Assembly: GCA_028700425.1 (NCBI GenBank)
Contig: JAQVSP010000002.1
Location: forward strand, 1-57,522
Direction of reading: 5' to 3'
Length of the DNA stretch: 57,522 bases
From: Sphaerochaetaceae bacterium
Lineage (GTDB): Bacteria > Spirochaetota > Spirochaetia > Sphaerochaetales > Sphaerochaetaceae
Under the pieces are notes generated by a model that saw only the letters and a list, made by a program, of their open reading frames with translations, had not been told where the DNA came from and searched no databases. Positions 22,642-50,864 of this stretch are shown in pieces; positions within the stretch are counted from its first letter, which is position 1, and each line of letters begins with the position of its first letter. A program made the translations under genes and the position numbers.

Positions 22642-25071
22642 ATGTCTTCCAGCAAGCTTGATAGGGTGTCTTTTGGCTTCTTTCTCTTTCAGGAGCTTGT
22701 CAGCCTGGTCACATCCTTGGCCTGCCTGATAAACCCTCGGGAATTTCAGAACCTTGTAGTGGTTCAGGAATTCTGCGTCTCCTCTGTCCTGGGCTGGACA
22801 GTGCTATATGCAGGCATGATAATCATATCCATAGTGCTGCTGGCCATGTGCATCCGGGCTCGGGTGTGGAAGCTTGACGTTCTGCTGATTGGATCTCTTT
22901 CTTGCTTTATAATGATATGCGGCTCATGGATTTACCTTGAAACCGGCATTCCTCTGATGCTTGCTCCATCCTTTGAAGAGCTGTGGAGGCTTCTTTCCTT
23001 CTTCACCTTCCATCTGATGCTAGTGCCGTTCCTGCTGTTTGCAAGGCTATGCTTCACCAAGGGCAAGGACCTGTTCCTGGCCCTGGCGTGGGTGATCATG
23101 GCCATGTTTGTCTTCAACTACATATGGCTGGTGGCCAGCGGCATGGAGTATCCTCCGACGCTTCTAGCCTTGCATATCATGCTGGTAGTGTCCATTGCAG
23201 CTGTGATCTGGGCCAGCATGTGGGAGATGAGAAAAGGCAAGGCGACACTGGGAAGGCCGATTGTCATCGGCAGCTTTGTCGTTGCCCTGGCAGGCCTTGC
23301 AGATCTTTGCACCTACTATCTCTCTGAGCCTCTTTTCCATTCCTCGACGTTCTTCATAGGAATAGCCCTGTCGGCTTTTCTCATAGTAATAGCCTATGTG
23401 AACTTCAGGTCCTTCTCCAGGAGCATAAGCATGGCCCTGGGCTGCCAGAGCCTGGCCAGCGAGCTGCCAAGCGGAATCTTCAGGTCCAGGCTGGATGACA
23501 GTCTCAGCGTAGAGCTTGCCAACAAGGCCTTCTACGAGACCTATGGCTTCCAGGACAGGGAGCAAGCCCTTTCCGAGGGCTTTGTGCAGGGAATGAGGAT
23601 GAGTCCCGATAAGCTCTCCGGCTTCGTGGAGGACTTACGCAGGTCCATAGCCCTTGGACAGAAGGGCATTGTCGTGGAAGCCCAGCAGAATGACAGAAGC
23701 GGCAAGCCGCTCTGGCTTCAGACTCACCTTCACTATGCCCCTGAGCAGGACAGCGTGCTTGGCTTCGTAGTGGACCTGACCAGCCGCAAGCTGGCTGAGG
23801 ACAGCCTCAAGGAAAGCGAGGAGCAGCTCAGGCTCACCGAGCAGCAGTACATGGTCACCCTTGCCCAGACAGGGCTCAATGTCTATCGCTATGACATTGA
23901 CAAGGATACAGCCTATCTGGATGGAAACCTTGTCAGCGCATATGGGCTGCCCAAGGTCATAGCTGATGTTCAGAGCTTCATCACCGAAGGCTCCTTGATA
24001 GTCAAGGAGAGCCAGAAGACCTTCCTTGACTTCATCAGAAGCCTTGACAATGGCCAGAAAAGCGCCAGATGCGATGTGGAGGTCGAGCTGGCAAGCAGCC
24101 AGAGGCTGTGGATCAGGCAGTCAGCCTCGATAGTGTTCGATTATGGCAGGCCGAGGCATGCAATCATCACCCTGAGCGACATCACCTTGAAGAGGGCCAA
24201 CGAGCTGGCCTTCGAGGACTGGAAGGCAAGCATAGATGCCCTAGGAACAAAGAACATAGCCAAGCTCAGGTGGAACCTTGCCTCAAATCGCCTTGAGCAA
24301 TGCAGCGGAGACCTGATTCGCCTGTCCTGTCCCGTTGAGGGCTTCGACAGGCACCTAGCACACATCATCGATACTCATGTAGCCCTTGAGGACCGCGGGC
24401 TGGTAGCCGGCAATCTCAGCGTCGATAAGCTGATAAGAAGCTACGAGAGCAAGAACTATGAAAGAAAAGTGGGCTTCAGGCTCCAGAAAGGCACGCAGAT
24501 GAGCCTGCTTATAAGGCTCATGGAAAGCGGCACAGGGCCCGATGTGACAGCCTACATTGTACTAAAGAAAATAGAGGAGAGCATCGACAGCGACCTGGGC
24601 TGCTGCGACTCTCTTACAGGGCTTCTTGCAAGGCAGGCCTTTGAGGCCAAGGCCAGCCAGGATTATGTCAGCTCTTCAAGGCCCTTCTGCATTGCCATCA
24701 TGGACCTTGATGGATTTGGGGCTGTGAATAGCCTCTATGGCCACGATGTGGGCGACCAGAGCCTGGTCAATGCAGCCCAGGCCATAGAAAGCGTCATAGA
24801 CAGCGAGGGCATAGTCGGCCGCTATGGCAATGATGAGTTCATAGCTGCCTTTGCCTGCTCGAGCATGGAGCAGGCCAGCCTGATGGCCAGAAGGCTTTGC
24901 CTGAGGATCAAGACCATATTCAGCGAAAGGCTGAAGCTGACAATGACAGTGGGCCTCTCTCTCAGTGCAGGCTTCAGAAGCCTGGATGAAATGCTCAAGA
25001 ACGCAAGCAAGGCCCTAGAAAAAGCGAAAACCGTCGGAACTGACGGTTTTGCATACAGCGATGAAGCTTAG
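22642..25071 (+). CDS. Membrane protein with PAS domains and a GGDEF domain (site GNDEF)
   Basis: This 809-aa protein has about seven hydrophobic segments in residues 1-255 (7TM sensor type), PAS-like regions about 275-385 and 400-515, a further sensor-like region, and a C-terminal GGDEF domain (about 650-805). The domain begins CDSLTGLLARQAFE and has MDLDGFGAVNSLYGHDVGDQ (split). The active site reads GNDEF (729-733) where GGDEF is expected; Asn at the second Gly would be expected to hinder GTP binding, so activity is doubtful. It may instead bind or sense nucleotide. Monocistronic by position; its last codons contain the minus-strand tRNA-Pro terminator. Confidence 0.88.
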   Translation: MSSSKLDRVSFGFFLFQELVSLVTSLACLINPREFQNLVVVQEFCVSSVLGWTVLYAGMIIISIVLLAMCIRARVWKLDVLLIGSLSCFIMICGSWIYLETGIPLMLAPSFEELWRLLSFFTFHLMLVPFLLFARLCFTKGKDLFLALAWVIMAMFVFNYIWLVASGMEYPPTLLALHIMLVVSIAAVIWASMWEMRKGKATLGRPIVIGSFVVALAGLADLCTYYLSEPLFHSSTFFIGIALSAFLIVIAYVNFRSFSRSISMALGCQSLASELPSGIFRSRLDDSLSVELANKAFYETYGFQDREQALSEGFVQGMRMSPDKLSGFVEDLRRSIALGQKGIVVEAQQNDRSGKPLWLQTHLHYAPEQDSVLGFVVDLTSRKLAEDSLKESEEQLRLTEQQYMVTLAQTGLNVYRYDIDKDTAYLDGNLVSAYGLPKVIADVQSFITEGSLIVKESQKTFLDFIRSLDNGQKSARCDVEVELASSQRLWIRQSASIVFDYGRPRHAIITLSDITLKRANELAFEDWKASIDALGTKNIAKLRWNLASNRLEQCSGDLIRLSCPVEGFDRHLAHIIDTHVALEDRGLVAGNLSVDKLIRSYESKNYERKVGFRLQKGTQMSLLIRLMESGTGPDVTAYIVLKKIEESIDSDLGCCDSLTGLLARQAFEAKASQDYVSSSRPFCIAIMDLDGFGAVNSLYGHDVGDQSLVNAAQAIESVIDSEGIVGRYGNDEFIAAFACSSMEQASLMARRLCLRIKTIFSERLKLTMTVGLSLSAGFRSLDEMLKNASKALEKAKTVGTDGFAYSDEA
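25022..25050 (-). terminator. tRNA-Pro terminator embedded in the GGDEF gene 3' end
   Basis: AAAACCGTC (25027-25035) and GACGGTTTT (25042-25050) form a 9-bp stem with a 6-nt loop. On the minus strand it is followed by TTTTCGCTTTTT. It lies within the last 17 codons of the GGDEF gene. Confidence 0.65.
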
Positions 25072-32562: not shown

Positions 32563-33975
32563 ATGGACATTCAGCAAATGATCGAGGCGGTTGCGCTCAA
32601 GCGCTTTGGCATCTCATCGCTCAAGCCCTTTCAGAGGCTTGTGATCCAGGATATCCTTGAGGCCTTGGATGGTGTGGAGCAGAAGAGGATCCTGGTGGTC
32701 CTTCCCACAGGGCTTGGAAAGAGCCTTTGCTTCATGCTTCCTAGCCTGCTGTGCAAGAATCTTTCCATACTTGTCTATCCCTTGCTCTCTCTGATGAGCG
32801 ACCAGCTTGGCAAGCTTGAGGCCCTGGGCATCGAGGCAGCCTGCCTCAAGGGCGGCCAGACAAGACAGGAAAGGCAGCATGCCCTAGGCAAGCTCAGCAA
32901 TGGGACAAGAATAGTGGTCACCAACCCAGAGACTCTTGGCCAGAAGGCTGTGCTTGAGGCCCTGAAGGCCTATGAGGTAAGCCTGCTTGTGGTCGACGAG
33001 GCCCATACTGCAAGCCTTTGGGGCAGGGCCTTCAGGCCTTCCTGCCTAAGGCTTGGAGCCATTGCCGAGGCTCTAAAGCCCAAGGCAACCCTTGCCTTCA
33101 CGGCAACTGCATCTGATGCTGTTGTCAAGGACATTGGCTCTATAGTGTTTTGCAATAAGTCCTTTGCCTTGATTCGAGGCGATGCTGACAGGCCAAACAT
33201 CTACTATGGCAGCGTGCAGAGCCTATCCAAGCTTCATAGCCTGAGGCTCATGGTCACAAGCGCCCCCAGGCCCTTGATAGTCTTCTGCAGGAACAGGGCC
33301 CTCACTGAGAGCCTGGCACGTTGGCTGAAGGCCTGCACCTTTTTGGATTGCAGGGCCTATCATGCAGGCCTGAGCAAGAAGGCGCGAGGCGAGATCGAGG
33401 CCTGGTTTCTCAAGTCCTCTGATGGGGTATTGTGCAGCACGAATGCCTATGGAATGGGGGTAGACAAGCGCGGTCTTAGGACTGTGGTTCATTATCGCAT
33501 GCCGGACTGCCTTGAGGACTTTCTTCAGGAGTCTGGAAGGGCTGGGCGGGATGGACTTTCCGCCTGGTCCTGGGTGCTTCGGGACCCAGGGGAGAAAAGG
33601 GAGATCTTCGACTGCTGCATAAGAGCCTCGGTTCTCAAGGCCTTTGGTTCGCTTCAGGTCAAATGCAGCGGGTGCGACACCTGCATGGGCGTGCAGGACC
33701 GCATCGAGGGCCTTGAGGAGATAAGGGCGGTGCTGGTCCATCATCCTCTTCGCTATGACAGAAAAAGCCTCATCGAAGTCCTTATGGGCAAGTGCAAGGA
33801 TGGGCTTGAAAGCTATTATGGAGTCCTGTGCTCATGGAAAGAGTGCGAGGTGGAAGAGGCCATAGACAGCTGCCTGCGCCTAGGCCTTGCGAAGGCCATT
33901 GGCAAGGCAGGGCGTATCTATTGGGCTTTTAAAAACAGTTCTTATGTATTAAGATCGACGTGGAGGAAGGTATGA
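32563..33975 (+). CDS. RecQ-family ATP-dependent DNA helicase
   Basis: This 470-aa helicase has the RecQ core. Motif I is LPTGLGKS (residues 47-54), motif II is DEAH at 145-148, motif III is AFTATAS, and motif VI is QESGRAGRDG. A short zinc-type CSGCDTC follows near 372. The winged-helix region is short and the HRDC domain is absent, so it is smaller than E. coli RecQ (about 610 aa). It unwinds 3'-5' in recombination or repair. The stop overlaps the galK ATG (ATGA). A ribosome-binding site is not evident. Confidence 0.9.
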   Translation: MDIQQMIEAVALKRFGISSLKPFQRLVIQDILEALDGVEQKRILVVLPTGLGKSLCFMLPSLLCKNLSILVYPLLSLMSDQLGKLEALGIEAACLKGGQTRQERQHALGKLSNGTRIVVTNPETLGQKAVLEALKAYEVSLLVVDEAHTASLWGRAFRPSCLRLGAIAEALKPKATLAFTATASDAVVKDIGSIVFCNKSFALIRGDADRPNIYYGSVQSLSKLHSLRLMVTSAPRPLIVFCRNRALTESLARWLKACTFLDCRAYHAGLSKKARGEIEAWFLKSSDGVLCSTNAYGMGVDKRGLRTVVHYRMPDCLEDFLQESGRAGRDGLSAWSWVLRDPGEKREIFDCCIRASVLKAFGSLQVKCSGCDTCMGVQDRIEGLEEIRAVLVHHPLRYDRKSLIEVLMGKCKDGLESYYGVLCSWKECEVEEAIDSCLRLGLAKAIGKAGRIYWAFKNSSYVLRSTWRKV

Positions 33976-35216: not shown

Positions 35217-35273
35217 AAAAACAGTCTATTGCATAATTCATGCATGTGGTATTATCCACTACGGAGGGCTAGC

Positions 35274-38200
35274 TTGGGCATAAGGACGATTCTATGCAGG
35301 AAAAGGGTGCTTCTCTGCTTTTTGCTTATTCTTGCCATGCTTCCAGCCAGGGCCTACAAGGTCGGCCTCTATGAGATGAATGGCTTGCTCCGTGTGAATG
35401 CAAGCGGCCAGTATGCTGGATACATTATCGATTACATGGACATGCTCGAGTCCTATTGTCCAGAGGGCTTCGAGTATGAGCTGCATAGCCTGGATGAGTG
35501 CATGAATCTTATGGAGAATGGGGAGCTGGACTGCATACCAGCCCTTGAGCGCAGCGAGGATAGGCTCAGGCGCTTTGACTTCTCAAGCATCTCCATGGGC
35601 TCTGATGGATGTCAGCTTGCATGCCTGGAATCGGCGCATATGAATGCAAGCTCGTCCCTGGACAATCTGAAGGTGGGAATCATAGCAAGATCCATATACG
35701 GAAAAGCCTTGCTGGAATATGCCCTAGTCCACTCGCAGGCTCCACAGATAATTGAGTACAGCACCCAGGAAGAGCTTGCCAAGGCTCTTGAAGACGGGCA
35801 GATCGATGCCGTGGCAATGAGCCGTGCAGGCCTTCTTCCTGGCTGCAAGGTCATCCTGGAGATACCGACCTCTCCGTTCTATATAGCCACATCCAAGAGC
35901 AATCCGGCGGTCCTCTACGACATAGAGGATGCCCAGAGAGCCCTTTTTGCAGACAACCCTGCCATCATATCTGAATTGTCGCGCATTCATTACAATGTAG
36001 GATCCAACAAGCCTCTGGTGCTCACCCGCGAAGAGGAGCAGTACGTTGCTTCGGCCGATCCCATACGCGTGGCAGTGAACACCAACGCTCCTCCATATGC
36101 ATATTACTCCTCCAAATCGGTGGTCAAGGGCCTGATTGTGGATCTGCTTGGCATCATCAGCGAGAAGACTGGGCTTCAGTTCACTCTCATAGAGGTCAGG
36201 GACTTCGAGGAGGCCTACCTGCTTGCAAAGGAGGGAAGGGCTGACGTGCTTGGCCTCTGCTACAGCGACAAGGCATTCTGCGAGTACAATGGACTCGATA
36301 GCACCTCGTCCTTCCTTTCAAGCCAGATGGTGCGGGTCTATAATGCCGAGAAGGAGAATGGCCAGCTTGCGGTGGTGTCGGGAACCTACAGCGAGTTCCT
36401 CTGCCAGCAGAAGCAGCTTGCCTGCCAGCCTTACAGCACATGGAAGACAGTCTTTGATGCCATTCTTGACAACAAGACCGGCCTTGTCTATGTCAACCAG
36501 AACACAGCCAGCTTCTTTCTGAACCAGCCTCGCTACAGCAGCCTGACCTACACCTATCAGGATCATCTGGACAAGGCATTGCTCACCTTGGGCATGATCA
36601 AGGCCGAGGATCCAGTTCTTCTCGGGATTCTCAGCAAGACCATAGATGCCATTCCAGAGGATATGATAGACAGGGCCCTTGTAAGCTCCATGAGGCTTGA
36701 CAACGGAGTGTTCACCAGCCTTGTCATGTCCTATCCAGGAGCCTTCATAGCATCGGCGCTCTTTGTCATCTGCCTTATCATATTCATATCCATTCTCATA
36801 AGCCAGATACGTAAGAGGAAGGCCAAGGAAGCTGAGAGCCAGATAATAGCGGCCAGGGACCTGGCCCTGTCCCAGAGAAGGCAGGCTGAGCTGGACAAGC
36901 TGACCATGATCTTCACCAGGACAGCCTTTGAAACAAGGCTTGGGAAGATGCTTAGGGAGAACGCTTTCGAATCCTATGTTGCCGTAAGCATGAAGATCGG
37001 CCATTTCAGCCTTTACAGCGATGTCTTTGGCAACGAGGCGGTGGATTCTCTGATAGCAAGTGTTGCAGGTGCCTTGAATGCCTTCTGCAAGGACCTGGCT
37101 CAGAAAGACAGATGCCTGTACGGAAGGCTTCATGACGATCATTTCATAGCTGTCTTCTTGAAGGAGGACCTGGATCTGGAGGGTCTTTCCCAGTCCATCG
37201 GGCAGGTCTGCCTGCAGAACGAGACTTCCATCGAGCTGGTGCCTCGCTTTGGAATCTATCCCATAGAGGATTCAAGCCAGGCTCCTGAGGAGATCTGCAC
37301 CATAGCCGACTCGGTCCTGCATGGAGATGATCAGAGATCGATACACTACTACTCTCATGACTCCCAGAAGAAGAGGGCCCTTGAACAGGAGGTACTGTCG
37401 AGCTTCTCGACGGCCTTGAAGAATGAAGAGCTATGCATGTACCTGCAGCCTATATGCAGCAGGGATGGCAGGATATCAAGCGCAGAGGCCTTGGCTCGCT
37501 GGATACGAAAGTCCGGCCAGGTCATAATGCCTCAGGTCTTCATTCCTGTTCTTGAGAAGAGCGGGCTGATCAGCAAGCTTGACTTCTACATGCTTGGCCA
37601 AGCGCTCAGGTACATCGAGGACCGCAGGTCCAGGGGCCTCTTCCTCTTCCCGATCTCAGTGAACTTCTCAAGAGTGAGCCTTTTCTCAAACAGCTTTGAG
37701 CATAACATTGACGAGATTCTAGCCCGGTTCAATGTAGACAGCAGCTTGCTGTATATAGAGATCACAGAGTCCACAATAGCCAGCTCCCCGCGCTATCTGC
37801 TGGATGTCATCAACCGCCTTCATCAGAAGGGCCTCAAGATCATGATGGATGATTTTGGATCTGGATATTCCTCGCTTAACATGCTGATGGACATGCCAGT
37901 GGATTTTCTGAAGCTGGACATGAGCTTCGTCCGTTCGGTTGTAACCTCCACAAGAGCCCAGAAGATTGTCCAGTCTGTCTGCAAGCTCGCCCAGGCTATG
38001 CGCCTCATAACTGTATCAGAGGGCATCGAGACAGAGGAGCAGCTCTTCATGATGGAAAGCTTTGGCTGCGATTTCTTCCAGGGCTTCTATTTCTCGGCTC
38101 CTGTTGGGACAAAGGCCTATGAGGACATGGGCTTTGAGGCTGCAGCCAGCACTGACACAGGCCATATGGCAGCAAGCGAGGACAGTACAAGCGGCTCTTC

Positions 38201-39482
38201 GATGAGAAGCATATTGTCCAACCTGGCTGTAGGGATAGCCATCTACCCCTTCGATGAGCCTGATAAGCCCATGTTCATGAACTTCAGCCTGTGCGACATG
38301 ATATGTGCAGCCTCTGAGAGCAAGGAGTCTGCGCTGTCCAGGTTCGTCGGCCGGCTCTTTGATGAAGGAAAGGCCAGCATAACAGAGCGCATGGGAGACT
38401 TTGTCAAGGGCAAGCTCTACGAGAAGGAGACCAGGTTTCTCCGCGCCGATGGCAAGACTCTGGTCATCAAGGCAAAGGTGCGCTTCGCGGCCAGCCTTGA
38501 TGGCGCCTATACCTGCTATGCCTGCTGCGAGGACATCACTGAGGTAGTGCAGAACCGACAGGCCAATGCCTGGCAGGCAGAGCGCTTCAAGGTCCTGGCC
38601 GAGATGACCAACATGCTTGTCTTCGACTATGACTGCAGGACAAGCATCCTCTCTTATTCCATTGTGCTTGGAGAGGCTGGCATGATAGAGGTCAAGCGTG
38701 AGCTTGGAGACATCAGCGAAGGTGCGTTGCCCAATTTCCCGCCTCAGAGCATGGCCTTGCTAAGGTCAAGCTTCAAGTCTCTTATGCAGAATCCTGGCAC
38801 CACCACCATTGAGCTCCAGACCAAGCTTCCAGGCAAGGAGGATGTGCGCTGGTATGCCATGAGGATACAGAGCATACAGGATGAAGATGGATCGGTTTAC
38901 AGCCTTGTAGGAGGCTTTGAGGATATCCAGTCGGCAAAGGAGCAGGAGAAAGAGAGCAAGATGCGCGAGCAGGACCTCATACGGCAGGCCTACTATGACA
39001 TGACCACATCGGTTCTGACCCGGTTCGCCTTTGAGCAGGCCTCACAGAGGATGCTGATGATGGCAAGCCCTTCACAGGTCTCGATGCTCTGCATTTATGA
39101 CCTGGACAACCTGAAGTACATCAACGATCACTGGGGCCACCAGAGGGGCGATCTGGCGCTCATGCTCATCAGCCAGGCTTTCAAGGCTTCCCCAATCATG
39201 ACAGAGGCTGTATTTGGCAGGGTCGGAGGAGATGAGTTTGGCATCATAATGCCCCTGAGAATCAGCCAGGAGGCTCTTCTCAAGGGCCTTGAGGAGATCC
39301 AGTCAAGCATAGCTGAGCTCAGGACCCAGGTGGATGAGGGAGCTTCCCTGTCTGTAAGCGGAGGCATTGTCATAGCCAATAGGCCAATGGCTTATGCTGA
39401 GGCCTTCCAGATTGCAGACCGGGCCCTGTACAAGGCAAAGCAAGGCGGAAAGGGCTGCTTCCATATAAGCGAGCAGCAGTAG
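35274..39482 (+). CDS. Giant membrane c-di-GMP sensor: SBP_bac_3 x2, TM, GGDEF-like, EAL, PAS region, GGDEF
   Basis: About 1402 aa from TTG 35274, chosen for GGAGGG (35263-35268); the frame is open from 35229. A signal peptide ends about residue 28 (PARA-YK). Two periplasmic SBP_bac_3 domains follow (about 28-240 and 265-485), the type that binds amino acids in BvgS-like sensors. One membrane helix lies near 490-515. Next is a degenerate GGDEF (site LHDDHF), then an EAL domain with E738-A739-L740, IEITES, MMDDFGSGYSSL, KLDMSFV, SEGIE and QGFYFS all kept. PAS-like regions (about 985-1215) lead to a complete GGDEF (1318-1322, RVGGDEF). It could both make and break c-di-GMP under ligand control. 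Its last 816 codons are duplicated downstream. Confidence 0.93.
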   Translation: MGIRTILCRKRVLLCFLLILAMLPARAYKVGLYEMNGLLRVNASGQYAGYIIDYMDMLESYCPEGFEYELHSLDECMNLMENGELDCIPALERSEDRLRRFDFSSISMGSDGCQLACLESAHMNASSSLDNLKVGIIARSIYGKALLEYALVHSQAPQIIEYSTQEELAKALEDGQIDAVAMSRAGLLPGCKVILEIPTSPFYIATSKSNPAVLYDIEDAQRALFADNPAIISELSRIHYNVGSNKPLVLTREEEQYVASADPIRVAVNTNAPPYAYYSSKSVVKGLIVDLLGIISEKTGLQFTLIEVRDFEEAYLLAKEGRADVLGLCYSDKAFCEYNGLDSTSSFLSSQMVRVYNAEKENGQLAVVSGTYSEFLCQQKQLACQPYSTWKTVFDAILDNKTGLVYVNQNTASFFLNQPRYSSLTYTYQDHLDKALLTLGMIKAEDPVLLGILSKTIDAIPEDMIDRALVSSMRLDNGVFTSLVMSYPGAFIASALFVICLIIFISILISQIRKRKAKEAESQIIAARDLALSQRRQAELDKLTMIFTRTAFETRLGKMLRENAFESYVAVSMKIGHFSLYSDVFGNEAVDSLIASVAGALNAFCKDLAQKDRCLYGRLHDDHFIAVFLKEDLDLEGLSQSIGQVCLQNETSIELVPRFGIYPIEDSSQAPEEICTIADSVLHGDDQRSIHYYSHDSQKKRALEQEVLSSFSTALKNEELCMYLQPICSRDGRISSAEALARWIRKSGQVIMPQVFIPVLEKSGLISKLDFYMLGQALRYIEDRRSRGLFLFPISVNFSRVSLFSNSFEHNIDEILARFNVDSSLLYIEITESTIASSPRYLLDVINRLHQKGLKIMMDDFGSGYSSLNMLMDMPVDFLKLDMSFVRSVVTSTRAQKIVQSVCKLAQAMRLITVSEGIETEEQLFMMESFGCDFFQGFYFSAPVGTKAYEDMGFEAAASTDTGHMAASEDSTSGSSMRSILSNLAVGIAIYPFDEPDKPMFMNFSLCDMICAASESKESALSRFVGRLFDEGKASITERMGDFVKGKLYEKETRFLRADGKTLVIKAKVRFAASLDGAYTCYACCEDITEVVQNRQANAWQAERFKVLAEMTNMLVFDYDCRTSILSYSIVLGEAGMIEVKRELGDISEGALPNFPPQSMALLRSSFKSLMQNPGTTTIELQTKLPGKEDVRWYAMRIQSIQDEDGSVYSLVGGFEDIQSAKEQEKESKMREQDLIRQAYYDMTTSVLTRFAFEQASQRMLMMASPSQVSMLCIYDLDNLKYINDHWGHQRGDLALMLISQAFKASPIMTEAVFGRVGGDEFGIIMPLRISQEALLKGLEEIQSSIAELRTQVDEGASLSVSGGIVIANRPMAYAEAFQIADRALYKAKQGGKGCFHISEQQ

Positions 39483-39934
39483 CCTGAAGCTTCGAGATTG
39501 ACGTTTCCATCAAGCTGACTTAAACTCTAGCTAGAGGTCACATGAGAGTATTAGTCATCAACCCCGGCGCAGTCTCCACCAAGATAAGCATATTTGAAGA
39601 GGAAGTTGAGGTCTTCAGAACATCCATTCCTCACAGCGACTCAGACCTCAGGCAGTTTGACAGGATCATAGACCAGAAGGCCTATCGCATGGGCCTGGCA
39701 AGAGAAGCGCTTCGCTCTTCAGGGTTCAGCAGCTTTGATGCCATATGCTCAAGGGGTGGGCTTCTTGCCCACATTCCTTCAGGCACCTATCTCATCAACG
39801 AGGCTGCCATTGCTGATGTGCTAGACCCTCCCTATGGGGAGCATGCCTCGAATCTGGGAATCCTGATGGCTCATCAGCTGAGCATAGAGTACAATTGCCC
39901 AGCCTGCTTCGTCGATCCGGTGAGCACCGATGAG
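37032..39934 (+). repeat. Tandem duplication, unit 1 (2,903 bp)
   Basis: Unit 1 starts at codon 587 of the giant sensor gene and ends after codon 131 of the first buk copy. The same sequence repeats head-to-tail at 39935-42837, with no difference in the stretches compared and identical translations. At the ends, TTTGGC|AACGAG (left), GATGAG|AACGAG (junction) and GATGAG|CTTTGC (right) share no bases at the breakpoints. Confidence 0.97.
39498..39526 (+). promoter_or_regulatory. buk promoter, copy 1, with palindrome
   Basis: TTGACG (39498-39503), 17 bp, TAAACT (39521-39526). The 12-bp perfect palindrome CTCTAGCTAGAG (39525-39536) overlaps the -10 box end and reaches the AGAGG ribosome-binding site, an operator candidate. 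Here it drives the chimeric gene. Confidence 0.75.
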
Positions 39935-42385
39935 AACGAGGCGGTGGATTCTCTGATAGCAAGTGTTGCAGGTGCCTTGAATGCCTTCTGCAAGGACCTG
40001 GCTCAGAAAGACAGATGCCTGTACGGAAGGCTTCATGACGATCATTTCATAGCTGTCTTCTTGAAGGAGGACCTGGATCTGGAGGGTCTTTCCCAGTCCA
40101 TCGGGCAGGTCTGCCTGCAGAACGAGACTTCCATCGAGCTGGTGCCTCGCTTTGGAATCTATCCCATAGAGGATTCAAGCCAGGCTCCTGAGGAGATCTG
40201 CACCATAGCCGACTCGGTCCTGCATGGAGATGATCAGAGATCGATACACTACTACTCTCATGACTCCCAGAAGAAGAGGGCCCTTGAACAGGAGGTACTG
40301 TCGAGCTTCTCGACGGCCTTGAAGAATGAAGAGCTATGCATGTACCTGCAGCCTATATGCAGCAGGGATGGCAGGATATCAAGCGCAGAGGCCTTGGCTC
40401 GCTGGATACGAAAGTCCGGCCAGGTCATAATGCCTCAGGTCTTCATTCCTGTTCTTGAGAAGAGCGGGCTGATCAGCAAGCTTGACTTCTACATGCTTGG
40501 CCAAGCGCTCAGGTACATCGAGGACCGCAGGTCCAGGGGCCTCTTCCTCTTCCCGATCTCAGTGAACTTCTCAAGAGTGAGCCTTTTCTCAAACAGCTTT
40601 GAGCATAACATTGACGAGATTCTAGCCCGGTTCAATGTAGACAGCAGCTTGCTGTATATAGAGATCACAGAGTCCACAATAGCCAGCTCCCCGCGCTATC
40701 TGCTGGATGTCATCAACCGCCTTCATCAGAAGGGCCTCAAGATCATGATGGATGATTTTGGATCTGGATATTCCTCGCTTAACATGCTGATGGACATGCC
40801 AGTGGATTTTCTGAAGCTGGACATGAGCTTCGTCCGTTCGGTTGTAACCTCCACAAGAGCCCAGAAGATTGTCCAGTCTGTCTGCAAGCTCGCCCAGGCT
40901 ATGCGCCTCATAACTGTATCAGAGGGCATCGAGACAGAGGAGCAGCTCTTCATGATGGAAAGCTTTGGCTGCGATTTCTTCCAGGGCTTCTATTTCTCGG
41001 CTCCTGTTGGGACAAAGGCCTATGAGGACATGGGCTTTGAGGCTGCAGCCAGCACTGACACAGGCCATATGGCAGCAAGCGAGGACAGTACAAGCGGCTC
41101 TTCGATGAGAAGCATATTGTCCAACCTGGCTGTAGGGATAGCCATCTACCCCTTCGATGAGCCTGATAAGCCCATGTTCATGAACTTCAGCCTGTGCGAC
41201 ATGATATGTGCAGCCTCTGAGAGCAAGGAGTCTGCGCTGTCCAGGTTCGTCGGCCGGCTCTTTGATGAAGGAAAGGCCAGCATAACAGAGCGCATGGGAG
41301 ACTTTGTCAAGGGCAAGCTCTACGAGAAGGAGACCAGGTTTCTCCGCGCCGATGGCAAGACTCTGGTCATCAAGGCAAAGGTGCGCTTCGCGGCCAGCCT
41401 TGATGGCGCCTATACCTGCTATGCCTGCTGCGAGGACATCACTGAGGTAGTGCAGAACCGACAGGCCAATGCCTGGCAGGCAGAGCGCTTCAAGGTCCTG
41501 GCCGAGATGACCAACATGCTTGTCTTCGACTATGACTGCAGGACAAGCATCCTCTCTTATTCCATTGTGCTTGGAGAGGCTGGCATGATAGAGGTCAAGC
41601 GTGAGCTTGGAGACATCAGCGAAGGTGCGTTGCCCAATTTCCCGCCTCAGAGCATGGCCTTGCTAAGGTCAAGCTTCAAGTCTCTTATGCAGAATCCTGG
41701 CACCACCACCATTGAGCTCCAGACCAAGCTTCCAGGCAAGGAGGATGTGCGCTGGTATGCCATGAGGATACAGAGCATACAGGATGAAGATGGATCGGTT
41801 TACAGCCTTGTAGGAGGCTTTGAGGATATCCAGTCGGCAAAGGAGCAGGAGAAAGAGAGCAAGATGCGCGAGCAGGACCTCATACGGCAGGCCTACTATG
41901 ACATGACCACATCGGTTCTGACCCGGTTCGCCTTTGAGCAGGCCTCACAGAGGATGCTGATGATGGCAAGCCCTTCACAGGTCTCGATGCTCTGCATTTA
42001 TGACCTGGACAACCTGAAGTACATCAACGATCACTGGGGCCACCAGAGGGGCGATCTGGCGCTCATGCTCATCAGCCAGGCTTTCAAGGCTTCCCCAATC
42101 ATGACAGAGGCTGTATTTGGCAGGGTCGGAGGAGATGAGTTTGGCATCATAATGCCCCTGAGAATCAGCCAGGAGGCTCTTCTCAAGGGCCTTGAGGAGA
42201 TCCAGTCAAGCATAGCTGAGCTCAGGACCCAGGTGGATGAGGGAGCTTCCCTGTCTGTAAGCGGAGGCATTGTCATAGCCAATAGGCCAATGGCTTATGC
42301 TGAGGCCTTCCAGATTGCAGACCGGGCCCTGTACAAGGCAAAGCAAGGCGGAAAGGGCTGCTTCCATATAAGCGAGCAGCAGTAG
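39542..42385 (+). CDS. Chimeric gene: butyrate kinase N-terminus fused to EAL-PAS-GGDEF
   Basis: This 947-codon frame was made by the tandem duplication. Residues 1-131 equal the start of butyrate kinase (MRVLVINPGAVSTK to ...VDPVSTDE). Residue 132 is N587 of the giant sensor, and the rest is identical to the sensor to its end. The join (39934/39935) is at a codon boundary in both parents, so the frame stays open. The product keeps the back half of the degenerate GGDEF, the whole EAL domain, the PAS region and the RVGGDEF domain. It loses signal peptide, SBP domains and membrane helix, so it would be cytoplasmic. The Buk part is only the first half of an ASKHA fold and should not be active. 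It has the buk promoter and AGAGG ribosome-binding site. Whether it exists in the cell depends on the assembly being right. Confidence 0.85.
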   Translation: MRVLVINPGAVSTKISIFEEEVEVFRTSIPHSDSDLRQFDRIIDQKAYRMGLAREALRSSGFSSFDAICSRGGLLAHIPSGTYLINEAAIADVLDPPYGEHASNLGILMAHQLSIEYNCPACFVDPVSTDENEAVDSLIASVAGALNAFCKDLAQKDRCLYGRLHDDHFIAVFLKEDLDLEGLSQSIGQVCLQNETSIELVPRFGIYPIEDSSQAPEEICTIADSVLHGDDQRSIHYYSHDSQKKRALEQEVLSSFSTALKNEELCMYLQPICSRDGRISSAEALARWIRKSGQVIMPQVFIPVLEKSGLISKLDFYMLGQALRYIEDRRSRGLFLFPISVNFSRVSLFSNSFEHNIDEILARFNVDSSLLYIEITESTIASSPRYLLDVINRLHQKGLKIMMDDFGSGYSSLNMLMDMPVDFLKLDMSFVRSVVTSTRAQKIVQSVCKLAQAMRLITVSEGIETEEQLFMMESFGCDFFQGFYFSAPVGTKAYEDMGFEAAASTDTGHMAASEDSTSGSSMRSILSNLAVGIAIYPFDEPDKPMFMNFSLCDMICAASESKESALSRFVGRLFDEGKASITERMGDFVKGKLYEKETRFLRADGKTLVIKAKVRFAASLDGAYTCYACCEDITEVVQNRQANAWQAERFKVLAEMTNMLVFDYDCRTSILSYSIVLGEAGMIEVKRELGDISEGALPNFPPQSMALLRSSFKSLMQNPGTTTIELQTKLPGKEDVRWYAMRIQSIQDEDGSVYSLVGGFEDIQSAKEQEKESKMREQDLIRQAYYDMTTSVLTRFAFEQASQRMLMMASPSQVSMLCIYDLDNLKYINDHWGHQRGDLALMLISQAFKASPIMTEAVFGRVGGDEFGIIMPLRISQEALLKGLEEIQSSIAELRTQVDEGASLSVSGGIVIANRPMAYAEAFQIADRALYKAKQGGKGCFHISEQQ

Positions 42386-42837
42386 CCTGAAGCTTCGAGA
42401 TTGACGTTTCCATCAAGCTGACTTAAACTCTAGCTAGAGGTCACATGAGAGTATTAGTCATCAACCCCGGCGCAGTCTCCACCAAGATAAGCATATTTGA
42501 AGAGGAAGTTGAGGTCTTCAGAACATCCATTCCTCACAGCGACTCAGACCTCAGGCAGTTTGACAGGATCATAGACCAGAAGGCCTATCGCATGGGCCTG
42601 GCAAGAGAAGCGCTTCGCTCTTCAGGGTTCAGCAGCTTTGATGCCATATGCTCAAGGGGTGGGCTTCTTGCCCACATTCCTTCAGGCACCTATCTCATCA
42701 ACGAGGCTGCCATTGCTGATGTGCTAGACCCTCCCTATGGGGAGCATGCCTCGAATCTGGGAATCCTGATGGCTCATCAGCTGAGCATAGAGTACAATTG
42801 CCCAGCCTGCTTCGTCGATCCGGTGAGCACCGATGAG
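39935..42837 (+). repeat. Tandem duplication, unit 2 (2,903 bp)
   Basis: Second head-to-tail copy of 37032-39934. It contains the chimera's c-di-GMP part (39935-42385), a second copy of the buk promoter and the first 131 codons of the intact buk gene. 2,903 is not a multiple of three, yet the junction is in frame because both breakpoints are at codon starts. Confidence 0.97.
42401..42429 (+). promoter_or_regulatory. buk promoter, copy 2, with palindrome
   Basis: TTGACG (42401-42406), 17 bp, TAAACT (42424-42429), identical to copy 1. The palindrome is at 42428-42439. This copy drives the intact buk operon. Confidence 0.75.
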
Positions 42838-43518
42838 CTTTGCCCCTTGGCGCGCTACAGCGGGTTTGCCCCCATGCAGCGCGAAAGCTTCTTTCATGCC
42901 CTCAACCAGAAGAGCATGGCAAGAAAGGCCGCTGAGATCCTTGGGCGCAGGTATGAGGACCTGAATCTCATAGTCGTCCATATGGGCGGAGGCGTCTCGG
43001 TGGCTGCCCACCGCAAGGGCCTTGTAATTGACAACTACAATGTGAAGGACGATGGGTCCTTTTCCATGGACAGGGCTGGGGCCCTGCCTGTGAACGCAGT
43101 GATAAACTATTGCTTCTCCGGCCTGACCAAGGCCCAGGTCAAGAAGACCCTGGGCTATGAGGCAGGAGTCTACTCCTACCTAGGCACCAGAAGCTTCATG
43201 GAGGTTGAGCAAAGGGCAAAGGAAGACCCCAAGGCCCGCGAGGTCATGGAGGCTCTTGTCTACCAGCATGCCAAGGACATCGGGGCCATGGCTGCGGTGC
43301 TTAAGTTCAAGGTGGATGCAATAGTCTTGACAGGAGGCATGGCCAACAGCCAGCTTTTGTGCTACTCAATCTGCGAGTATGTAGGCTCCATAGCCCGCAT
43401 CATCATCCTTCCAGGTGAAAGCGAGATGACAGCCCTTTGCCAAGGAGCCTTGAGAATGCTTCGAGGAGAGGGAACCAGAGTATATCCAAGTGGAGAGATA
43501 AATGAGACATCTAGATGA
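42445..43518 (+). CDS. buk: Butyrate kinase (branched/aryl acyl kinase)
   Basis: This 357-aa ASKHA-fold kinase transfers phosphate from an acyl phosphate to ADP. It starts MRVLVINPGAVSTKISIFE, with VVHMGGGVSVAAHRKG near residue 174, GSFSMDRAGALP, and the late nucleotide-binding TGGMANS. Length matches Clostridium Buk. With the following genes it should recover ATP from acyl-CoA made from amino acids, so branched or aromatic acyl phosphates are as likely as butyryl phosphate. The ptb gene overlaps its end by 17 bp. The first 131 codons are also present in the chimera upstream. Confidence 0.95.
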   Translation: MRVLVINPGAVSTKISIFEEEVEVFRTSIPHSDSDLRQFDRIIDQKAYRMGLAREALRSSGFSSFDAICSRGGLLAHIPSGTYLINEAAIADVLDPPYGEHASNLGILMAHQLSIEYNCPACFVDPVSTDELCPLARYSGFAPMQRESFFHALNQKSMARKAAEILGRRYEDLNLIVVHMGGGVSVAAHRKGLVIDNYNVKDDGSFSMDRAGALPVNAVINYCFSGLTKAQVKKTLGYEAGVYSYLGTRSFMEVEQRAKEDPKAREVMEALVYQHAKDIGAMAAVLKFKVDAIVLTGGMANSQLLCYSICEYVGSIARIIILPGESEMTALCQGALRMLRGEGTRVYPSGEINETSR

Positions 43519-49802: not shown

Positions 49803-50864
49803 ATGGATGCAAAGAAAATCAAAGCCAAATATGACGAAAAGCGCATGAACCTTACCAAGACCTTGAAGAAAGGAACTCCAGAGTATGAGAAGCAGCTCAA
49901 GGCTCTGGACAAGGCTGAAAAAGAAGCGCTTGCACAAATTCCCATGACCAAGAGAGAGAAGATCAAGGCTGAGAAGGCCGAGATCTACAATCGTGTTCTT
50001 GAGCAGTGCCAGGCTCGCTGGGATGAAAAGTCCGCTCTAGCGCAGAAGCAGGCTGAGTCCCTGGCTGCCGAAGAAGCCAAGAAAGCTGCTGAAGCCAAGA
50101 AGGCCGAAGCCGCCAGAAAGGCAGAGGAAGCACGCAAGGCCGAGGAAGCCCGCAAGGCAGCCGAGGCCAAGAAGGCTGAAGAGGCCAGAAAGGCTGAGGA
50201 AGCACGCAAGGCCGAGGAAGCCCGCAAGGCAGCCGAGGCCAAGAAGGCCGAAGAGGCCAGAAAGGCTGAGGAAGCACGCAAGGCCGAAGAAGCCCGCAAG
50301 GCAGCCGAGGCCAAGAAGGCCGAAGAGGCCAAGAAGGCTGAAGATGAGGCTCGCAAGGCAGCTGAAGAGGCCAAGACTGCTGATGAAGCCCGCAAGGCTG
50401 CAGAGGCAGCAAGGCTTGAGGAGCTTGCCAGGGCGACTATCAGGAAGATTGAGGAACAGGAAGCTGAAAAGGCAAAGAAAGAGAGGAGACCTCCAAAGCC
50501 GGTTGACTTCAATTTCCTTTCCAGGAGAGCATCCAAGCTTTATGACGATACATTTGTAGCCTTGCATGACCTTCAGGCCCAGGTAGACCGGAAGAATGGC
50601 GAAATCAAGGCTCTCAGGACCCCAAAGGATGCAACTGAGGACCAGAAGAAGGAGCTGTCAGCAAGGCGCGCTATTTTGAAAGCCGAGGCGAAGAAGCTTC
50701 AGGCAGCATTTGAGATCAAGGTTGAGTGCGCAATCTCTCTTCAGAAGAACATACTCGATTACCAGACCGTTCTCAGAGCGCAGAAGCAGGAAGTCAAGGT
50801 CTATAACAAGCAGCCGCTTCTGGAGCTGGTTGAAGAAGTTGATCCTAATGAGCTGAGCAGATGA
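49803..50864 (+). CDS. Cytoplasmic Ala/Lys/Glu coiled-coil protein, TolA-like in composition
   Basis: This 353-aa protein has a charged N-terminal part (1-80), a long repetitive helix (about 80-215) built from AEAKKAEEARKAEEARK-type units, and a non-repetitive C-terminal domain (about 225-353: FNFLSRRASKLYDDTFVALHDL and further predicted helices). There is no signal peptide or membrane segment, so despite the TolA-like repeat it is not TolA. The central part should form a single long alpha-helix or coiled coil. No family is recognised. It has its own promoter and terminator, so it is monocistronic. GGGAGGC precedes ATG 49803. Confidence 0.82.
   Translation: MDAKKIKAKYDEKRMNLTKTLKKGTPEYEKQLKALDKAEKEALAQIPMTKREKIKAEKAEIYNRVLEQCQARWDEKSALAQKQAESLAAEEAKKAAEAKKAEAARKAEEARKAEEARKAAEAKKAEEARKAEEARKAEEARKAAEAKKAEEARKAEEARKAEEARKAAEAKKAEEAKKAEDEARKAAEEAKTADEARKAAEAARLEELARATIRKIEEQEAEKAKKERRPPKPVDFNFLSRRASKLYDDTFVALHDLQAQVDRKNGEIKALRTPKDATEDQKKELSARRAILKAEAKKLQAAFEIKVECAISLQKNILDYQTVLRAQKQEVKVYNKQPLLELVEEVDPNELSR
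50089..50340 (+). repeat. 72-nt in-frame tandem repeat (about 3.5 copies)
   Basis: Repeat starts are at 50089, 50161, 50233 and 50305, exactly 72 bases apart. Each encodes 24 residues of the A/K/E/R helix; within each unit a 15-nt sub-repeat (EEARK) is visible. The second and third copies are nearly identical. Confidence 0.9.

Follow-up and report, generated by a model that had tools for sequence, protein, structure and literature searches.

An exact head-to-tail repeat of 2.9 kb, spanning a c-di-GMP sensor gene and the start of a butyrate kinase gene (buk), raises the question of how much a draft contig can tell about a duplication in the cells from which it was assembled. The repeat lies in a contig (C2) of a Sphaerochaetaceae bacterium; the window, that is, the whole stretch of DNA analysed, is this entire contig of 57,522 bases. 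The earlier note offered a choice between a real duplication and an assembly error. These are indeed alternatives, but the choice is too coarse, since the junction may be real while the copy number, or the share of cells carrying it, is wrong.

The repeat unit and its junction

By direct comparison within the window, positions 37032-39934 and 39935-42837 are adjacent, head-to-tail and identical at 2,903 of 2,903 bases, so that the sequence contains the at least two adjacent direct copies that define a tandem duplication. The run of identity at an offset of 2,903 is exactly 37032-39934 and extends to neither side; its length excludes a chance origin. The locus has the following features.

35229 to 39482, forward strand: whole c-di-GMP sensor gene, 1417 aa, with SBP_bac_3 domains, a membrane helix, a degenerate first GGDEF, EAL and GGDEF
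37032 to 39934, forward strand: copy 1 of the unit, made of sensor codons 602-1417, a 59-bp gap and buk codons 1-131
39498 to 39526, forward strand: promoter-like match ahead of the fusion ORF, occurring again at 42401-42429 ahead of the whole buk
39542 to 42385, forward strand: in-frame fusion ORF, 947 aa, with Buk residues 1-131 followed by sensor residues 602-1417
39934 to 39935, no strand: novel junction, with no shared bases, covered by 127 words of 128 bases
39935 to 42837, forward strand: copy 2 of the unit, identical to copy 1 throughout
42445 to 43518, forward strand: whole butyrate kinase gene buk, 357 aa, which opens the run buk-ptb-iorA-iorB-aminotransferase

The unit is preceded by C and the junction by G; the junction is followed by A and the second copy by C. 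Because the flanking bases differ on both sides, the two breakpoints have no base in common, neither the homology expected of RecA-dependent recombination nor a microhomology being found there. The junction holds zero inserted bases and falls on codon boundaries of both genes, after buk codon 131 and before sensor codon 602, counted from the TTG at 35229 that opens the longest ORF. An imperfect local match of CAGCGATG-TCTTTG with CACCGATGAGCTTTG was rejected as homology: it lies off the join and is no better than random pairs of positions, 683 of 2944 of which equal it at +/-20 bp. Among the neighbouring genes scanned (RecQ, galactokinase, sensor, buk, ptb, iorA, iorB and the aminotransferase), no insertion sequence or mobile element of the kind expected of an IS-mediated event was found at the junction or its flanks. 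There is no tRNA or known RNA at the unit ends, the three tRNAs lying elsewhere. A search of the genome (94% complete) for a Ku gene (PF02735) gave no match, with B. subtilis positive as a control; since no Ku gene was found, the simplest zero-homology repair route, Ku/LigD end joining, is not in evidence.

Most of what the earlier note had said of the repeat agrees with these results. It described two identical 2,903-bp stretches, and their coordinates proved exact; it placed one break after buk codon 131, saw no shared bases at the breakpoints and considered both parent genes whole, all of which the base comparison and the gene coordinates bear out. Its view that homologous or microhomology-driven recombination is not suggested also holds, the imperfect match being at random level, as does the absence of an insertion sequence at either end, as far as the scanned neighbour genes are concerned. 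Its sensor codon 587, on the other hand, depends on the start chosen, and the longest ORF puts that break just before codon 602.

The whole Buk protein (P0003) reaches 392.8 bits against TIGR02707 over residues 2-343, above the cut-off of 289.1, and can be assigned at the equivalog level. Further along the run, iorA, one iorB model and the aminotransferase each exceed their own cut-offs, and the best model for ptb (275 bits) stays below its cut-off of 410.5. In the sensor protein, a single membrane helix is found at about 498-529, EAL at 725-958 and the C-terminal GGDEF at 1254-1408. Linkage of sensor and buk was not seen in relatives within the short stretches covered: at E<=1e-5 the sensor (P0001) had no match within about 1.5 kb on each side of the 19 buk loci tested, which were drawn from 29 loci in other genomes.

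The fusion ORF keeps EAL (255-488) and the C-terminal GGDEF (784-938), with the EAL and GGDEF motifs retained. It has no SBP match, and the membrane helix of the sensor falls outside it. Its Buk part scores 132.5 bits against TIGR02707, under the cut-off. A ribosome-binding-like AGAGG precedes its ATG, and the fusion would be expressed from the buk start; promoter-like matches over the region number 4, against 4.1 expected, and are thus no more frequent than by chance. If the duplication is real, the locus would consist of the whole sensor gene, a fusion gene read from the buk start, and the whole buk with its downstream genes.

Several other observations concern the surroundings of the unit. 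The genome has 15 matches to the sensor protein, and the contig encodes a second long GGDEF protein at 22642-25071. An ORF at 49803-50864 contains an array of an 18-bp repeat (50031-50425, at least 12 copies in register) encoding an Ala/Glu/Lys-rich stretch. About 3 kb upstream of the unit lies a gene for a short RecQ-family helicase (470 aa, 32563-33975), above the cut-off of the subfamily model TIGR00614 and below that of the long equivalog. The relevant part of PMC11111574 refers to RecQ as regulating illegitimate recombination; the position of this gene near the unit is probably a coincidence.

What the contig can attest

The assembly comprises 2,096,323 bases in 210 contigs and is 94.5% complete. 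Our sample covered 75 of these contigs including the window, five of them read only to 20 kb; seven consisted only of N, and the 68 readable ones amount to 609,243 bases. Three contig pairs (L055/L111, L102/L122 and L102/L147) share terminal overlaps of exactly 127 bp, and the other overlaps listed measure 47 to 126 bp and stop short of the partner's end, none of those listed being longer than 127. L145 matches the opposite strand of the window with its final 121 bases, the match starting exactly 127 bases from the window's 5' end. The 127-bp overlaps at contig ends therefore point to a de Bruijn graph with k=127, i.e. to short reads. There is also a gap of exactly 100 N in L049 (4834-4933), which suggests scaffolding joins in the draft.

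Such a fixed word length is far below the length of the unit, as a de Bruijn loop requires. Two, three and ten copies all yield one and the same set of 128-base words, and so does one copy accompanied by the unit as a closed circle; the single-copy arrangement lacks only 127 words, all of them over the junction, and these are the sole sequence of the window missing from it. From the 127-bp overlaps and the equal word sets we infer that the unit forms a self-loop in the assembly graph. It follows from the equal word sets that a de Bruijn assembler attests the junction and, beyond depth, nothing more. In the pertinent sections of PMC6052550, tandem repeats appear as graph loops with one entry and one exit, and SPAdes scaffolds carried 2 copies whether the simulated truth was 2, 3, 4 or 5 (units of 100-500 bp, with some table cells at 0). 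Both "two" and "identical" may consequently be products of the assembler. Since a loop walked twice yields the same letters twice, identity cannot date the duplication. Assemblers also merge close variants. What the sequence attests is one new junction; the number of copies, their identity and the fraction of cells concerned are not readable from the contig.

Two further claims of the earlier note are not supported. It called the duplication, if real, "very recent", but identical copies are what walking a de Bruijn loop produces by itself. It also called it "unstable", but duplications of 2.6 and 3.3 kb engineered in P. aeruginosa are long-lived, 50% loss taking about 7,100 and about 4,300 generations, respectively, in the experiments concerned (PMC12607827); a 2.9-kb unit need not be unstable. 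The caution is a general one. In a short-read draft, an exact tandem repeat of kilobase size is proof of one junction at most; two identical copies do not follow from it, and thus neither recency nor copy number can be read from it. Nor should genes be counted from this locus, where a second EAL-GGDEF protein and a partial second butyrate kinase would enter the tally.

Origin of the junction

Because the window differs from a single copy by the 127 junction words, these words must, by the logic of the method, have been present in the reads. We infer that reads crossed the junction and that it arose in cells. The reading that we consider moderately probable is that illegitimate recombination produced a real tandem duplication in some cells at least, and that the loop was written as two copies. 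A new head-to-tail junction would have joined buk codon 131 to codon 602 of the c-di-GMP sensor gene lying upstream, through homology-independent illegitimate recombination, so that part or all of the sampled population would carry a 2.9-kb tandem duplication or a higher amplification; in the short-read de Bruijn graph this junction would have formed a loop, which would then have been written out as two copies. In favour of a real duplication, head-to-tail ends lying 2.9 kb apart would be an unlikely product of random fragment ligation, and nearly homology-free duplications have been documented in bacteria, as far as the excerpts of PMC4432121 and PMC11111574 go. Counting against it are the absence of a Ku gene and zero homology at the junction: in a Salmonella study (PMC3411829, in the part concerned), duplications taken as true had at least 11 bp of junction homology, and little homology was mostly the sign of ligation chimeras.

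The same points lead to the main alternative, in which the cells carry a single copy and the junction words came from a 2.9-kb fragment that had closed into a circle, from a chimeric read or from a small number of PCR duplicates. A junction without homology is what ligation chimeras display (PMC3411829, in the same part), the Ku gene was not found in the genome, and a fragmented de Bruijn draft, in which word sets are equal across copy numbers, is in keeping with such an accident. Nevertheless, a random chimera should rarely join ends 2.9 kb apart head-to-tail, and assemblers would usually drop weakly covered junctions. That the 68 readable contigs (609,243 bases) contain no further exact direct repeat of similar length cuts both ways: a one-off accident fits it as well as a real event does, but a systematic library fault should have given more such loops, and loops were thus not written indiscriminately in this assembly. 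Taken together, an artefact of library or assembly appears unlikely, yet it deserves serious weight. For comparison, 899,864 bases from 83 loci in other genomes contained a single exact direct repeat of 300 bases or more (L163, offset 3,214). It was rejected as a parallel case, being a partial repeat that covers about 1.4 kb and does not double the entire 3.2-kb period head to tail. At L164 12365-13728 (G029 contig 5), where the sensor protein has a match in another family of the class, about 1.4 kb of sequence recurs at an offset of 3,214 with many exact 60-base words. In a single scan of genome_contigs, 45 loci came up at 28-35% identity, too distant to show the single-copy form.

An excised circle of the unit beside a single-copy chromosome would give exactly the 128-base words of the window. 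The ends of the unit, however, carry no repeat and lie inside two ordinary genes, and no recombinase was found among the scanned neighbour genes; we regard such a circle as improbable. It is also appealing to see in the fusion an adaptive capture of a promoter, by which a soluble Buk-EAL-GGDEF protein would come under the control of the buk start. The in-frame ORF of 947 aa sheds the sensor and membrane parts while retaining the EAL and GGDEF motifs, it has the ribosome-binding-like AGAGG before its ATG, and promoter capture via tandem duplication is known from the cases described in the excerpts of PMC11111574 and PMC4432121. On the opposite side, the promoter-like site does not stand out from chance, and a 20-base junction word had no exact match in viral_contigs (where own records may be left out). 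Joining by chance would be in frame in one in three cases. Adaptive capture therefore deserves very little credence. Hardly more credible is the fuller version of the story: a natural zero-homology 2.9-kb amplification in an uncultured bacterium, with a soluble Buk-EAL-GGDEF fusion made from the start of an amino-acid/butyrate fermentation run and a c-di-GMP enzyme freed from its membrane sensor. A real tandem duplication in at least some cells, of whatever copy number, thus remains the reading that we prefer.

Comparison with known systems

The event is an ordinary kind of duplication, or an artefact. If the junction is confirmed, it would represent a natural homology-independent duplication fusing two genes in frame. 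Junctions linked to insertion sequences, as treated in the part of PMC13423834 concerned, do not fit this one as a model. In its graph properties, the locus resembles the de Bruijn tandem-repeat loops of PMC6052550 and the self-loop calls made by rhea (PMC11211843), at least as presented in the relevant sections: the repeat is much longer than k, has one entry and one exit, and is written as two copies. In size class it is similar to the short P. aeruginosa duplications (2.6 and 3.3 kb), which, according to the passages cited (PMC12607827), were engineered with a marker at the join. In the almost homology-free join it is like the patAB duplication of Streptococcus pneumoniae M184, for which the corresponding text of PMC4432121 gives 2 shared bases. 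The support differs. In the accounts drawn on here, copy numbers were checked by depth or simulation (PMC6052550, PMC11211843), the patAB duplication by junction PCR and expression assays (PMC4432121), and the fusions in the his genes of Salmonella were laboratory-selected, whereas the present repeat is known from the sequence of a draft contig alone. The outcome differs from patAB as well, a change of transcription there standing against a protein fusion here. The Salmonella his genes (Anderson and Roth 1978, cited in the part of PMC11111574 concerned) provide an instance of a tandem duplication that fused a gene to a novel promoter, and the arrangement described here is of the same design: a head-to-tail junction sets one coding part behind the start of another gene, and both parent genes stay whole.
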